Shown here piece by piece: positions 641 to 21,181 of a stretch of DNA of 64,000 bases. How positions within the stretch are numbered: the stretch's first letter is position 1; every line of letters starts with the position of its first letter. The DNA lies in NCBI GenBank assembly GCA_014695195.1, contig JACJNW010000044.1, positions 124,001 through 188,000 on the forward strand, read 5' to 3'. The translations under genes were made by a program, and so were the position numbers. A model generated the notes under the pieces. The model worked only from the letters and a program-made list of their open reading frames with translations, made no database searches and had not been told where the DNA came from. This DNA is from Cyanobacteria bacterium FACHB-DQ100. GTDB lineage: Bacteria > Cyanobacteriota > Cyanobacteriia > Leptolyngbyales > Leptolyngbyaceae.

Positions 641-2212
641 CTACCCTTGAATTGCTGCGATTACGACCTGAGCAAAGTTGCCCCACGTGGGTTTAATCTG
701 AAGTCTTGCAAAACATCGCGAACAATTGAGCAAATTCCGATGATCCGCAAACCAAACCGGAGTCAGCGGCATTCGGAACGGTGCATACAAGACAGATTTT
801 TGGGGTCGATCGAGAAAGCAAGCGTTATGCACAAAGCCTTGACCGGATTGAATATCGTTCGCATCATTGCCTGGATAAGCCCCCCAAGTCAGTTGAGGCA
901 CGCCGAAATTGGCAGCCGACCAAGCATTCACGCCGATCGCGCCATACTTCAAATTCGCAACCGCATCTTCTACGTTTGACTTCGACAAAATTACGCAGGA
1001 CAAATTGCCCCAAATTTTCTCATTAGCAAAGGGAACGACACGATCAAGAAATTCTTCTGCGGTCGTCGCGTCTAAACTCACCTCAGCCAGCACTCCACAA
1101 AAAGCTTCGTTTTGTAGCGCATAATCATCCTCAATATTCGGAATGAATGTCCACGGTACAATCGCTTCCGTGCGAGTGCCGAAGATTTCAGCTTGGGGAT
1201 AACGATCGAGAAATGCCTGATAGCGCTGTTGCGCCCCTGGATAGTAAGCGTTGCGACTGGGAGTTTTGGCGAGTTCTTCTCGGATTAGATCGAGGAAACG
1301 ATCGCGCAGTTTCCACCCGCTTGCCGTCACAATCACCTGTGCAGCCACACAGTTAAAACTGGCATTGTTGACTACCATACTCGCGACATGACGAGCTTGA
1401 TATCTTAACTCCGACTCAGACCAATCGCCGGGAACAATCAAAACCGGAGTGACACAGCCTAGCTCAGAGGTGATCGGCTTCGGCTGAGGGAGTGATTGAA
1501 CGATCGCTTCATAAGTATGATGCGACCCCGTGATGTGAATGGTGTCAATTTTTGGATGCTGACAAAGAAATGCGCCGACATCAGCGCCACCATAGACAAT
1601 TTGCAGAAAACCATCCGCGATTAACGGCTCAAACGCTTGCTCTAAAAATTTCCCTACATAAGCGTTGACCGGATTCATCTTCAGCAAAACGACTTGATTT
1701 TCAGCAAATAGCTTGTGAATTGCATCGAGCGGCGGCGTTGCTCCGACATTCCCCGCTCCCAAAACCAGCGCAATCCCTCCAGTTTGAGAAACCTGACGAG
1801 ATTCAAAGTCCCCCACTCGTGGGGAGTTTAGGGGGCTTTCTGAGTCTTCAGCCGCACCTCGATCGAGCCAAACTTCCCCCCGAAACCCAAGCCAAAGCAA
1901 TCGATCGAACCAATTATCGGGGAACGCCCGCGCAATATTATTTTCGATTTTTGCAGTTCGTCCTTCGAGTGTTCTGACGATCGCCCGCAGCATCGTCAAG
2001 GTCGCTACTGCTCCGGTCAGATATTCTTCACCTACCCACTTTGGATCAAATCCCTTCGCCTCACACGCCGCGATCGCCCACGGCTCTGCAACCGCCATCA
2101 CACCATGCATACACCGCTTCAGATAATCAATCCGCGCTGCCGTTTTGACCTGGAGCCACGCAGATTTCCGGGAATTTAGTAAATCGATCGCACATTCGGT
2201 TTGGGTAAACAT
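641..2212 (-). CDS. Aldehyde dehydrogenase-superfamily protein with an inserted palindrome
   Basis: About 523 residues. ALDH-fold landmarks are visible: the nucleotide-binding stretch GGIALVLGAGN near residue 147, HITGSHHTYEA near 227, the general-base region TSELGC (Glu 250) and the nucleophile in NNASFNC (Cys 288). The ATG at 2212 is preferred; the open frame runs on upstream, but that part overlaps the promoter of the divergent peroxiredoxin gene. Residues ~125-138 are encoded by a copy of the CCCCCTAAA palindrome that elsewhere in the window is intergenic, so the gene has taken up a repeat in frame. The segment lies between the N-terminal region and the Rossmann fold, probably a surface loop. 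It is co-oriented with the cupin gene. The substrate is unknown; an acyl-CoA reductase-like role is possible. Confidence 0.8.
   Translation of the reverse strand: MFTQTECAIDLLNSRKSAWLQVKTAARIDYLKRCMHGVMAVAEPWAIAACEAKGFDPKWVGEEYLTGAVATLTMLRAIVRTLEGRTAKIENNIARAFPDNWFDRLLWLGFRGEVWLDRGAAEDSESPLNSPRVGDFESRQVSQTGGIALVLGAGNVGATPPLDAIHKLFAENQVVLLKMNPVNAYVGKFLEQAFEPLIADGFLQIVYGGADVGAFLCQHPKIDTIHITGSHHTYEAIVQSLPQPKPITSELGCVTPVLIVPGDWSESELRYQARHVASMVVNNASFNCVAAQVIVTASGWKLRDRFLDLIREELAKTPSRNAYYPGAQQRYQAFLDRYPQAEIFGTRTEAIVPWTFIPNIEDDYALQNEAFCGVLAEVSLDATTAEEFLDRVVPFANEKIWGNLSCVILSKSNVEDAVANLKYGAIGVNAWSAANFGVPQLTWGAYPGNDANDIQSGQGFVHNACFLDRPQKSVLYAPFRMPLTPVWFADHRNLLNCSRCFARLQIKPTWGNFAQVVIAAIQG
1804..1836. 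repeat. Half-unit of the CCCCCTAAA palindromic repeat inside a coding sequence
   Basis: On the plus strand this reads AAGTCCCCCACTCGTGGGG followed by AGTTTAGGGGGCT. It is nearly identical to the right arm of the MITE-like elements at 3003-3161, 13843-14020 and 21012-21181. Here it is translated on the minus strand as SPLNSPRVGDF within the aldehyde dehydrogenase-like protein. Confidence 0.85.
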
Positions 2213-2964: not shown

Positions 2965-3002
2965 GCCAGTTTTATTGTTTATTGCAATCGTGCGATCGTC
3001 TC

Positions 3003-3161
3003 ATACCAAATTGATTTTTGAGTGCGACAGATCTCGGAAGCCCCCTAAATCCCCCACGCGTGGGGGACTTCAAGCCCAATCTGTTTCGGATTCTCAAAGT
3101 CCCCCAGTATGGGGGATTTAGGGGGCGAAGGATCTGTCGCATTAATAAATTGATTCGGTAT
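3003..3161. mobile_element. MITE-like palindromic element, copy A (159 bp)
   Basis: Imperfect terminal inverted repeats of about 31 bp run inward from ATACC at each end and finish in GCGACAGATC. Between them lie two hairpins, each with arms of the type CCCCCTAAATCCCCCA / TGGGGGACTT. The core matches the elements at 13843 and 21012, but the termini differ, so this is a related subfamily. There is no coding capacity. It fills most of the 332-bp gap between the peroxiredoxin gene and the next gene. Confidence 0.75.
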
Positions 3162-3239
3162 CAAATAGCCTTCTTTTGATAGACGGCATGGCTAGATCAG
3201 GAGTTCTATAACAGTTGTGATGAGATCAAACCGATAGCA

Positions 3240-6507: not shown

Positions 6508-6606
6508 TCGCAAAATTTCTAATAAAAAACCCTGATCCGAAGACCAGGGTAAATAATCAGGGTGCATCTACCACTCCACTATTCCCAAAGTGGGAGAGCT
6601 ATCCGG
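6508..6606 (-). ncRNA. Candidate small RNA, downstream copy
   Basis: This unit has the same structure as the copy at 6612-6710, with CCAGGGT in place of CCAGGGC on the plus strand. It retains an intact terminator hairpin and T-run. Independent expression would need its own promoter inside the repeat. Confidence 0.45.
6522..6549 (-). terminator. Terminator of the downstream small-RNA copy
   Basis: On the minus strand CCCTGGTC-TTCG-GATCAGGG forms an 8-bp stem with one G-T pair and a UUCG tetraloop, followed by TTTTTTATT. The same structure recurs 104 bases higher, at about 6626-6653. Confidence 0.85.
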
Positions 6607-6611
6607 AGGAT

Positions 6612-6710
6612 TCGCAAAATTTCTAATAAAAAACCCTGATCCGAAGACCAGGGCAAATAATCAGGGTGCATCTACCACTCCACTATTCCCAAAGTGGGAG
6701 AGCTATCCGG
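6612..6710 (-). ncRNA. Candidate small RNA, upstream copy
   Basis: This is the first unit met by transcription from the cryptochrome side. It holds a 5' hairpin, a single-stranded linker and a rho-independent terminator (6626-6653 region). No promoter was confirmed; it could be read from a promoter near the 3' end of the photolyase gene or processed from that mRNA. It may match one of the conserved cyanobacterial small RNAs, but I cannot name which. Confidence 0.5.
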
Positions 6711-6715
6711 AAGAA

Positions 6716-9991: not shown

Positions 9992-10232
9992 ATCTATTAA
10001 ATTTATTAACAAGACGCGCAGGGCGAATAGCACTTAGCTTCCAGAAATTGGAGTCAAATTGTTAATCAGTTTGTGAGATGAGCCGCTACTCTAGCAGCAC
10101 GATCGGTAGACAGGTCTGAAAGGTTCTAAAATCCTGATCTGTTGTAAAGATAGAATCGTTGCGACGATAGGCAACAGCACAAATTAGAAAATCCGTATTC
10201 GAGCCTTGAATTCCATTGCGGCGGCAGGTGTT
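9934..10232. repeat. Direct repeat bounding the accessory island, left copy
   Basis: About 299 bp, aligning almost end to end with 13515-13806 at high identity by eye. It holds a terminator and the last ~147 bp of vapC. It begins at CTCCTCTCTAGAGGATCG and ends at GGCGGCAGGTGTT in both copies. Confidence 0.85.
9952..9991 (+). terminator. Rho-independent terminator, left repeat copy
   Basis: The stem GGGCGCAAA / TTTTGCGTCC is closed by a ~9-nt loop, then TTTTTTT. There is no T-run on the other strand, so it acts on plus-strand transcripts. Confidence 0.8.
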
Positions 10233-13570: not shown

Positions 13571-13655
13571 ATCTATGAACAAGAGACGAAGGGCGAATAG
13601 CGCTTAGTTTCCAGGAATTGGAGTCGAATTGTTAATCAGTTTGTGAGATGAGCCG

Positions 13656-13806
13656 CTACTCTAGCCGCACGATCAGGAGACAGGTTTGAGAGATTCTGAA
13701 ATCCTGATCCGTTTTAGAAATAGAACTGTTGCGGCGATGGACAACAGCACAAATTAGTTAGAAAATCTGTATTCGAGCCTTGAATCCCATTACGGCGGCA
13801 GGTGTT
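13656..13806 (-). pseudogene. vapC 3'-fragment (degenerate)
   Basis: Matches the last ~49 codons of the intact vapC at 10086. Translated on the minus strand it keeps the C-terminal phrase ending VLLE-like, but a 4-base insertion at about 13756 (TTAGTTAG) shifts the frame and gives a stop. The 5' two thirds of the gene are missing: homology ends abruptly at 13806, 37 bases before a MITE-like element. It cannot make a functional toxin. Confidence 0.8.
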
Positions 13807-13842
13807 AACGGATGAGACGGAAATCCCCTCCCTGCTTCGCGG

Positions 13843-14020
13843 CTACCGTGTACACACAAGTCGTAACTCGCTTCGTTTGAGTCGGCTTTAGCCCCCTAAA
13901 TCCCCCAAAATGGGGGACTTTGAGCTCGGAGTTTTGGATCGAAGTCCCCCATTCATGGGGGATTTAGGGGGCAGAGGATTTCTGCGGTAACAGATCAATC
14001 AACTTGTGTGTACACGGTAG
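13843..14020. mobile_element. MITE-like palindromic element, copy B (178 bp) with flanking direct repeats
   Basis: The terminal inverted repeats are perfect over 18 bp: CTACCGTGTACACACAAG at the left and its complement at the right. The 11-bp sequence CTGCTTCGCGG occurs directly on both sides (13832-13842 and 14021-14031), as a target-site duplication would. The core has two hairpins with CCCCCTAAATCCCCCA-type arms. No open reading frame is present. Confidence 0.85.
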
Positions 14021-14159
14021 CTGCTTCGCGGAGGAAAGAGGGATGAGATGTTGCGGCAATGACAAATCGATGTCTTGAACAATGTGAAGCATTACTGAGT
14101 CCAGGACAAAAAGTGAGAACCTCTCTCATTACTTAACTCTCGCTCTCATCCTGACGCTT

Positions 14160-21011: not shown

Positions 21012-21181
21012 CTACGGTGTATACACATCTCTTTCTCGCTGCGTTTGAGTCAGCTCCCTAAATCCCCCACTCGTGGGGGGCTTTGAAGTCAAAGCTTCGG
21101 ATCGAAGTCCCCCAGAATGGGGGATTTAGGGGGCTGAGGCCGATGACAACGAAGTGAGAAGAAGATGTGTATACACCGTAG
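21012..21181. mobile_element. MITE-like palindromic element, copy C (170 bp)
   Basis: Perfect 19-bp terminal inverted repeats: CTACGGTGTATACACATCT at the left and its complement at the right. The interior aligns with copy B, including GCGTTTGAGTC and both CCCCCTAAA/CCCCCA hairpins. I see no clear target-site duplication here. Confidence 0.85.

Follow-up and report, generated by a model that had tools for sequence, protein, structure and literature searches.

A palindromic repeat translated in frame within an aldehyde dehydrogenase-like gene of a cyanobacterium and its probable origin from an IS982-type miniature element

Palindromic repeats that are translated in frame inside genes were first described in Rickettsia, and protein-coding palindromes have so far come mainly from Rickettsia and Wolbachia, which are intracellular bacteria that are hard to manipulate. 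The question raised by the locus described here is whether such a repeat lies within an aldehyde dehydrogenase-like gene of a cyanobacterium, and by what route it came to be there. The stretch of DNA analysed (64,000 nucleotides of Cyanobacteria bacterium FACHB-DQ100, called the window) contains this gene on the minus strand at positions 641 to 2212, encoding 523 amino acids from an ATG at 2212. The reading frame is open to 2347, and the ATG at 2212 rather than the first GTG is the most likely start because most homologues align from about residue 45 to 57. The protein matched Pfam PF00171 (51.7 bits) and matched the aldehyde dehydrogenase models of NCBIfam below threshold only, and the best Foldseek matches to a model of the protein were solved aldehyde dehydrogenases (E about 1e-20, TM about 0.6).

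The first-pass annotation of this DNA had placed a palindromic repeat in frame inside the gene, and the same reading was obtained here: positions 1799-1840 of the minus strand translate as ESPLNSPRVGDFES in the frame of the open reading frame 641-2347. The repeat core, CCCCCTAAACTCCCCACGAGTGGGGGA, is at 1809-1835, and the palindrome half unit occupies 1803-1838 on the minus strand and is read as SPLNSPRVGDF (1805-1837), which makes up residues 126-136 of 523. The catalytic residues had been said to be intact, and it was found that Glu250 and Cys288 (numbering of the 523-residue protein), which we take to be the catalytic residues of this dehydrogenase-like protein, are invariant across an alignment of 62 sequences.

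The repeat unit has the form GCCCCCTAAATCCCCCAnnn(n)TGGGGGACTTTGA and recurs within the window, where CCCCCTAAA was found six times compared to a shuffle mean of 0.16. Over the 5.5-Mb genome, the pattern CCCCCTAAAYYCCCC was found at 181 sites; the reversed-sequence control for this pattern is uninformative because CCCCCTAAATCCCCC is identical when read backwards. The genome contains 174 exact copies of the core and, when mismatches are allowed, 190 unit matches in 116 element rows, 68 of which consist of two units in inverted order; two places enter these rows twice because the unit matches both strands. The palindrome is thus present in many genomic copies, as are the protein-coding palindromic elements of the Rickettsia (RPE) and Wolbachia (WPE) kind. 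Beyond this genome, the 15-mer CCCCCTAAATCCCCC was present in 159 of the 291 genomes of the class (this genome included). The loops of the units pair as reverse complements (TTC 39 and GAA 18, CGAG 39 and CTCG 13, CAAG 7 and CTTG 2), as if the loops were inverting.

A match to the dehydrogenase, in some cases weak, was found in 35 of 58 genomes searched, including this one. The alignment held 38 rows from outside the genus, several of which represent one locus from two collections and two of which do not cover the site, and the insert peptide was absent from all 36 rows that do. It might be proposed, given an intact frame and a conserved gene family, that the peptide has long had a function in the protein and resembles the repeat by chance. 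However, the DNA matches a genome-wide repeat, homologues lack the peptide (the 36 rows from outside the genus and two relatives within it, G004 and G006), and no distant genus among these rows was found to carry it in diverged DNA, which the first-pass annotation had named as the sign of an old protein part. This explanation was therefore rejected as extremely improbable.

The gene was then compared between this genome (G000) and seven relatives of the same genus (G001 to G007), five of which have the gene in one of three states. In G001 (Phormidium tanganyikae FI6-MK23), a whole element of two units in inverted order is present at the same site and is translated in frame (ISPLNPPFWGNLKE...VSKSPNCGGFRGQKPLKTKR), in agreement with the earlier proposal that the window copy is a half unit. 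Two relatives have remnants (SSPLNPPQFE in G002 and SSLNSLQVRNF in G005), and G004 and G006 have no insert at the site. There was no match to the dehydrogenase protein in G003, and in the closest relative, G007, the gene is missing between conserved neighbours (locus L276 compared to window 659-2207), which is a gene loss. The decayed unit of G005 (L034) has arms, TTCCTT...GAGGAA, that have each changed and look complementary to one another, and the minimum-energy fold pairs this stretch otherwise.

An AlphaFold2 model of the window protein, which alone was modelled, was obtained with 62 homologues and had a mean pLDDT of 93.4. Nowhere but at residues 120-135 did the pLDDT stay under 50 for three or more residues in a row, and the insert peptide (126-136) was placed in this low-confidence region between two strands, directly before the strand of the LVLGAGN motif. 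Because few aligned sequences cover the insert, a low pLDDT is expected there, and so the model supports but does not prove that the insert sits in a flexible loop. The host protein is presumably made and functional with the insert.

A scan of the proteome for similar peptides, of the sort the first-pass annotation had in mind, was positive: six more in-frame copies were found in this genome, in MenC, MenD, MenE, CbiD, CobN, and an HAD-family hydrolase. These host genes were identified as open frames around the genomic units and were named by NCBIfam, with MenC, CbiD, MenD, and CobN passing the equivalog cut-off, MenE scoring 579.5 bits where its best equivalog requires 640, and the HAD hydrolase passing broad subfamily models only. 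Candidate copies in a C-terminal tail (L203) or probably upstream of the true start (L159, L168, and L186) were left out of this count. In all, seven conserved genes that have insert-free homologues read the repeat in frame, as is characteristic of RPE and WPE.

The states of the six further sites in the eight genomes were as follows, where a decayed state was judged from weak likeness. In MenC, a half unit is present in G000, G001, G003, G006, and G007, is truncated in G004, and is absent from G002 and G005; in MenD, a half unit is present in G000, G001, G002, G005, and G007 and absent from G003, G004, and G006. The MenE site has a half unit in G000 and G007, a whole element in G001 and G002, a decayed one in G005, another palindrome in G004 and G006, and none in G003. 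The CobN site has a whole element in G000, G001, and G007 and none in G002, G004, G005, and G006, and is not covered in G003. The CbiD site has a whole element in G001 and G004, a half unit in G000, and a decayed one in G005, and is empty in G002, G003, G006, and G007. The HAD hydrolase has a whole element in G000 and a short stretch in G007 that, by eye, consists of the two ends of the element, and the element is absent from G001 to G006. The different palindrome in the MenE loop of G006 (L262) and G004 (L265) reads CCCGGAATGGAATTC... and AAAGTCCACTGAAGGGGACT, respectively; that of G004 ends in CGCAACGAAGCGAA, which resembles the family B ends described below, and a loose motif search found this palindrome nowhere else in the loci examined.

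Relatives whose genomes were assembled separately, including G002 (5 contigs) and G004 (4 contigs), have inserts at the same sites, which leaves next to no chance that a repeat was misjoined into the gene by a sequencing or assembly error, even though this genome is in 44 contigs and its repeats are common. The same site states bear on whether these loops are hot spots that took fresh copies independently in each lineage. A FastTree phylogeny of four host genes (gap-free columns) gave the groups (G002,G005), (G000,G007), and (G003,G004,G006) at full support, with G001 beside (G003,G004,G006) at 0.59 and (G002,G005) outermost at 0.76. The CbiD states are patchy on this tree and conflict with it, and young copies would be expected to have arms near the consensus even where the species have diverged, both of which favor independent insertion. 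On the other hand, by inspection six of the seven sites are compatible with a single gain followed by no more than one loss in a clade, and the codon position of the MenC half unit is the same in G000, G001, G003, G006, and G007 (truncated in G004), a state that independent truncations would hardly reproduce. Independent repeated insertion is therefore considered an unlikely explanation.

What kind of element gave rise to these inserts was evaluated from the ends of the intergenic copies, by which the elements were grouped into families. Family A comprises 43 rows at 41 places, mostly of 156-158 or 100 bp, with ends TACCRAATT. The flanking 3-mers were equal in 38 rows (36 places) and were TNA in 36 rows (35 places), where equality by chance is estimated at about 1 in 64. 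An example in the window is the 157-bp element at 3004-3160, with TACC...GGTA ends and two inverted core units, which is flanked by the target duplication TCA on the left (3001-3003) and on the right (3161-3163); the orthologous place in G007 is without the element and has a single TCA. Two other intergenic elements of the window also have two core units between outer inverted repeats, at 13839-14024 (core units 13892-13971, repeats GCGGCTACCGTGTACACACAAGT) and at 21012-21181 (core units 21054-21133, repeats CTACGGTGTATACACA...). Length alone was rejected as the cause of the absence of family A from the seven genes: its commonest lengths with the 3 bp of duplication added (160 and 103) are not multiples of three, yet 156-bp copies (159) exist.

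Family B comprises 57 rows in which the inner end TTCGCTKCG was found on one side or both, with up to one mismatch, and the CobN and HAD copies are among them. Seventeen intergenic family B elements have both outer ends ACGTSAGTTCGAY. Ten of these have flanking 7-mers that agree at 6 or 7 of the 7 positions, compared to 5 of 272 mismatched pairs; the other seven had no good 7-bp duplication. Sixteen element rows were without recognized ends, including the half units in MenE, MenC, CbiD, and MenD and the window copy, which is a half unit that itself keeps no recognizable ends. Among the whole copies in genes, both inner ends, with at most one mismatch each, were found in CobN (G000, G001, and G007) and CbiD (G001 and G004), whereas the whole dehydrogenase copy of G001 has an inner end on one side and the MenE copy of G001 has the right end. 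The CbiD, dehydrogenase, and MenE copies were assigned to family B from these ends of their whole orthologues, and so the window copy probably belongs to family B by way of its whole orthologue in G001. For MenC and MenD, the whole form was found in no relative examined, and these copies were assigned to neither family. A search gave no clear outer ends at in-gene copies, those of the HAD copy having been read by eye; the latter has the host sequence CTAAAAACTGC (protein ALKTA) on both sides, 174 nt apart, which is a multiple of 3.

A search with the outer-end pattern also found an inverted pair 1 kb apart (L307) with an IS982-family transposase gene between (NF033520, 257.7 bits, cut-off 130). 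TAAAATC is present on both sides of this element, a 7-bp duplication, and the element is without the CCCCCTAAA core. Family B thus has the outer ends of an autonomous element found in this genome, and the duplication size is the same, as is characteristic of an IS982-derived miniature inverted-repeat element (MITE), and both empty and filled sites exist among the relatives.

These inverted hairpins could alternatively be REP units, and the whole elements REPINs, moved by a RAYT-type (Y1, HUH) transposase, since there are two short palindromic units, inverted, mostly intergenic, and in high copy number. Y1_Tnp had matches in each of the seven relatives and in 219 of the 291 class genomes, and so such a mover could have been lost from this genome, and GTAG directly precedes 9 of the 190 units. 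However, this genome has no Y1_Tnp (RAYT) match despite 174 exact core copies, whereas 5 of 14 control genomes do match, and G016, G061, and G084 (35, 23, and 40 copies) are also without one. Moreover, of the 190 units only 9 directly follow GTAG and none follows CGTC, and neither tag stands directly after any unit, which is not the pattern of REP tags. The copies are also bounded by inverted repeats, with duplications of 3 bp or 7 bp. A RAYT as the present mover is therefore disfavored, as no Y1 transposase was found in this genome and the tags are mostly lacking, and an origin as REP sequences is considered improbable.

An IS982-type miniature element that inserted in frame and is now eroding is thus the best explanation of the window copy, to which we assign a probability of roughly three in four. 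The earlier interpretation of an in-gene palindrome is supported, with the refinement that the repeat is transposon-like and that relatives in the genus share the insertion, in several states. The proposed course of events is that, in an ancestor of the genus, a non-autonomous MITE inserted in frame where the gene encodes a loop of the enzyme, and that the window copy is its remaining half. The element family would have been moved by an IS982-type transposase, the insertion adding a 7-bp target duplication; this transposase is the most likely mover because the outer ends of the family also bound the complete IS982-family element of this genome. Selection would have left in genes only those insertions with a total length divisible by three and no stop in the frame that is translated. 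Such inserts would become loop peptides, and later in-frame deletions would reduce them to a half unit or a remnant or remove them altogether, an order of events suggested by the series of states among the relatives.

The element is a further, well documented protein-coding palindrome, now in a cyanobacterial genus. RPE and the Wolbachia palindromic elements are described as multi-copy repeats that conserved genes tolerate and translate in frame (PMC2229807, PMC10969869, PMC3733652), and by description the present element is like them, as a palindromic, multi-copy repeat translated inside conserved genes. On the same descriptions, the present element differs in its cyanobacterial host, in the IS982-type ends of intact members, in visible target duplications, and in the occurrence of whole, half, remnant, and empty states at one site in related species. 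The GTAG/CGTC REPs, which include cyanobacterial families, are also intragenic in some cases, and a stretch of 20 to 30 residues is then encoded by a dimer or group (PMC3733652). The likeness lies in inverted units that are short, occur singly or as dimers, and in some cases are inside genes, and the differences in the rarity of a preceding GTAG (9 of 190 units), the lack of a Y1 transposase here, and the MITE-type duplications. MITEs with open frames fused to genes include the Correia 107-bp element and ERIC (PMC2229807), which are likewise small and non-autonomous with some copies in frame within genes, but the present element has other ends and probably another transposase family (IS982).

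The literature searched, with supplements and some earlier repeat studies beyond its scope, contained no recognized report of this in-frame repeat in cyanobacteria, and the core sequence was not found in it. Elhai in 2008 (cited in PMC3116915) reportedly described small dispersed mobile repeats of cyanobacterial genomes, which by description the present element resembles in being small, mobile, and cyanobacterial. In this cyanobacterial genus there is a candidate transposase, sites occur both empty and filled, and related species have every stage from a whole element to a remnant at one codon position, and therefore the origin of such insertions, their cost to the enzyme, and their loss or retention are testable.

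Retention of the repeat as coding sequence looks specific to the genus, although this is not proven. When a 52-residue translation of the element, the one translation queried, was searched against ten genomes of other genera with high core counts, there was no frame longer than 138 aa among the matches listed (about 150, mostly from one genome). The same query against six genomes of the genus gave, as the top listed matches, four copies within genes, their frames being 417 to 557 aa long, one of these copies being the source of the query. An open frame through the core plus 25 bases on each side was found in 42 of 66 two-unit elements compared to 53% of shuffles, a weak excess.

The arms of the in-gene copies were found to be conserved relative to the rest of the genes. 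Between G000 and the relatives, taking in all species with aligned codons, the arm codons for the same residue were identical in 134 of 158 cases, whereas 93.6 were predicted from the same residues elsewhere, pooled. For the 33 pairs in which both copies are recognizable, 231 of 237 codons were identical compared to 64% in the rest of the genes, a count that is biased because recognition requires similarity and in which the pairs are not independent. The loop varies and the arms stay, including the CCCCCTAAA arm that has no inverted partner unit in half units. This identity could be explained by the youth of the copies, by gene conversion, or by selection on structure. Read by eye, the core (TCCCCC-loop-GGGGGA-TTT-AGGGGG) is laid out in three arms, a pyrimidine arm, a purine arm, and a mirror purine arm, like a purine-motif intrastrand triplex. 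This class of triplex is reported to be frequent in some cyanobacteria (PMC4666352), and from the likeness in layout the core may be one of those motifs.

Five of the seven host genes serve phylloquinone or cobalamin synthesis, which was noticed after the fact, and MenC and MenE are neighbours. The men mutants of cyanobacteria are viable, and this pathway bias may only reflect enzymes that are tolerant of change. It is a tentative and rather doubtful idea that the arms are held at the genomic consensus while the enzymes around them diverge, by gene conversion from about a hundred copies or by selection on hairpin or triplex DNA or RNA, such that repeat dynamics as well as protein selection dictate part of the enzyme sequence, together with a real targeting or regulatory bias toward phylloquinone and cobalamin genes.

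The window contains other repeats as well. Two direct repeats of 103 bases with 98% identity, which start 104 bases apart, are present at 6508-6714, and a stretch of about 235 bases is duplicated at 10001-10232 and 13571-13806, 3.6 kb apart, with 87-94% identity.
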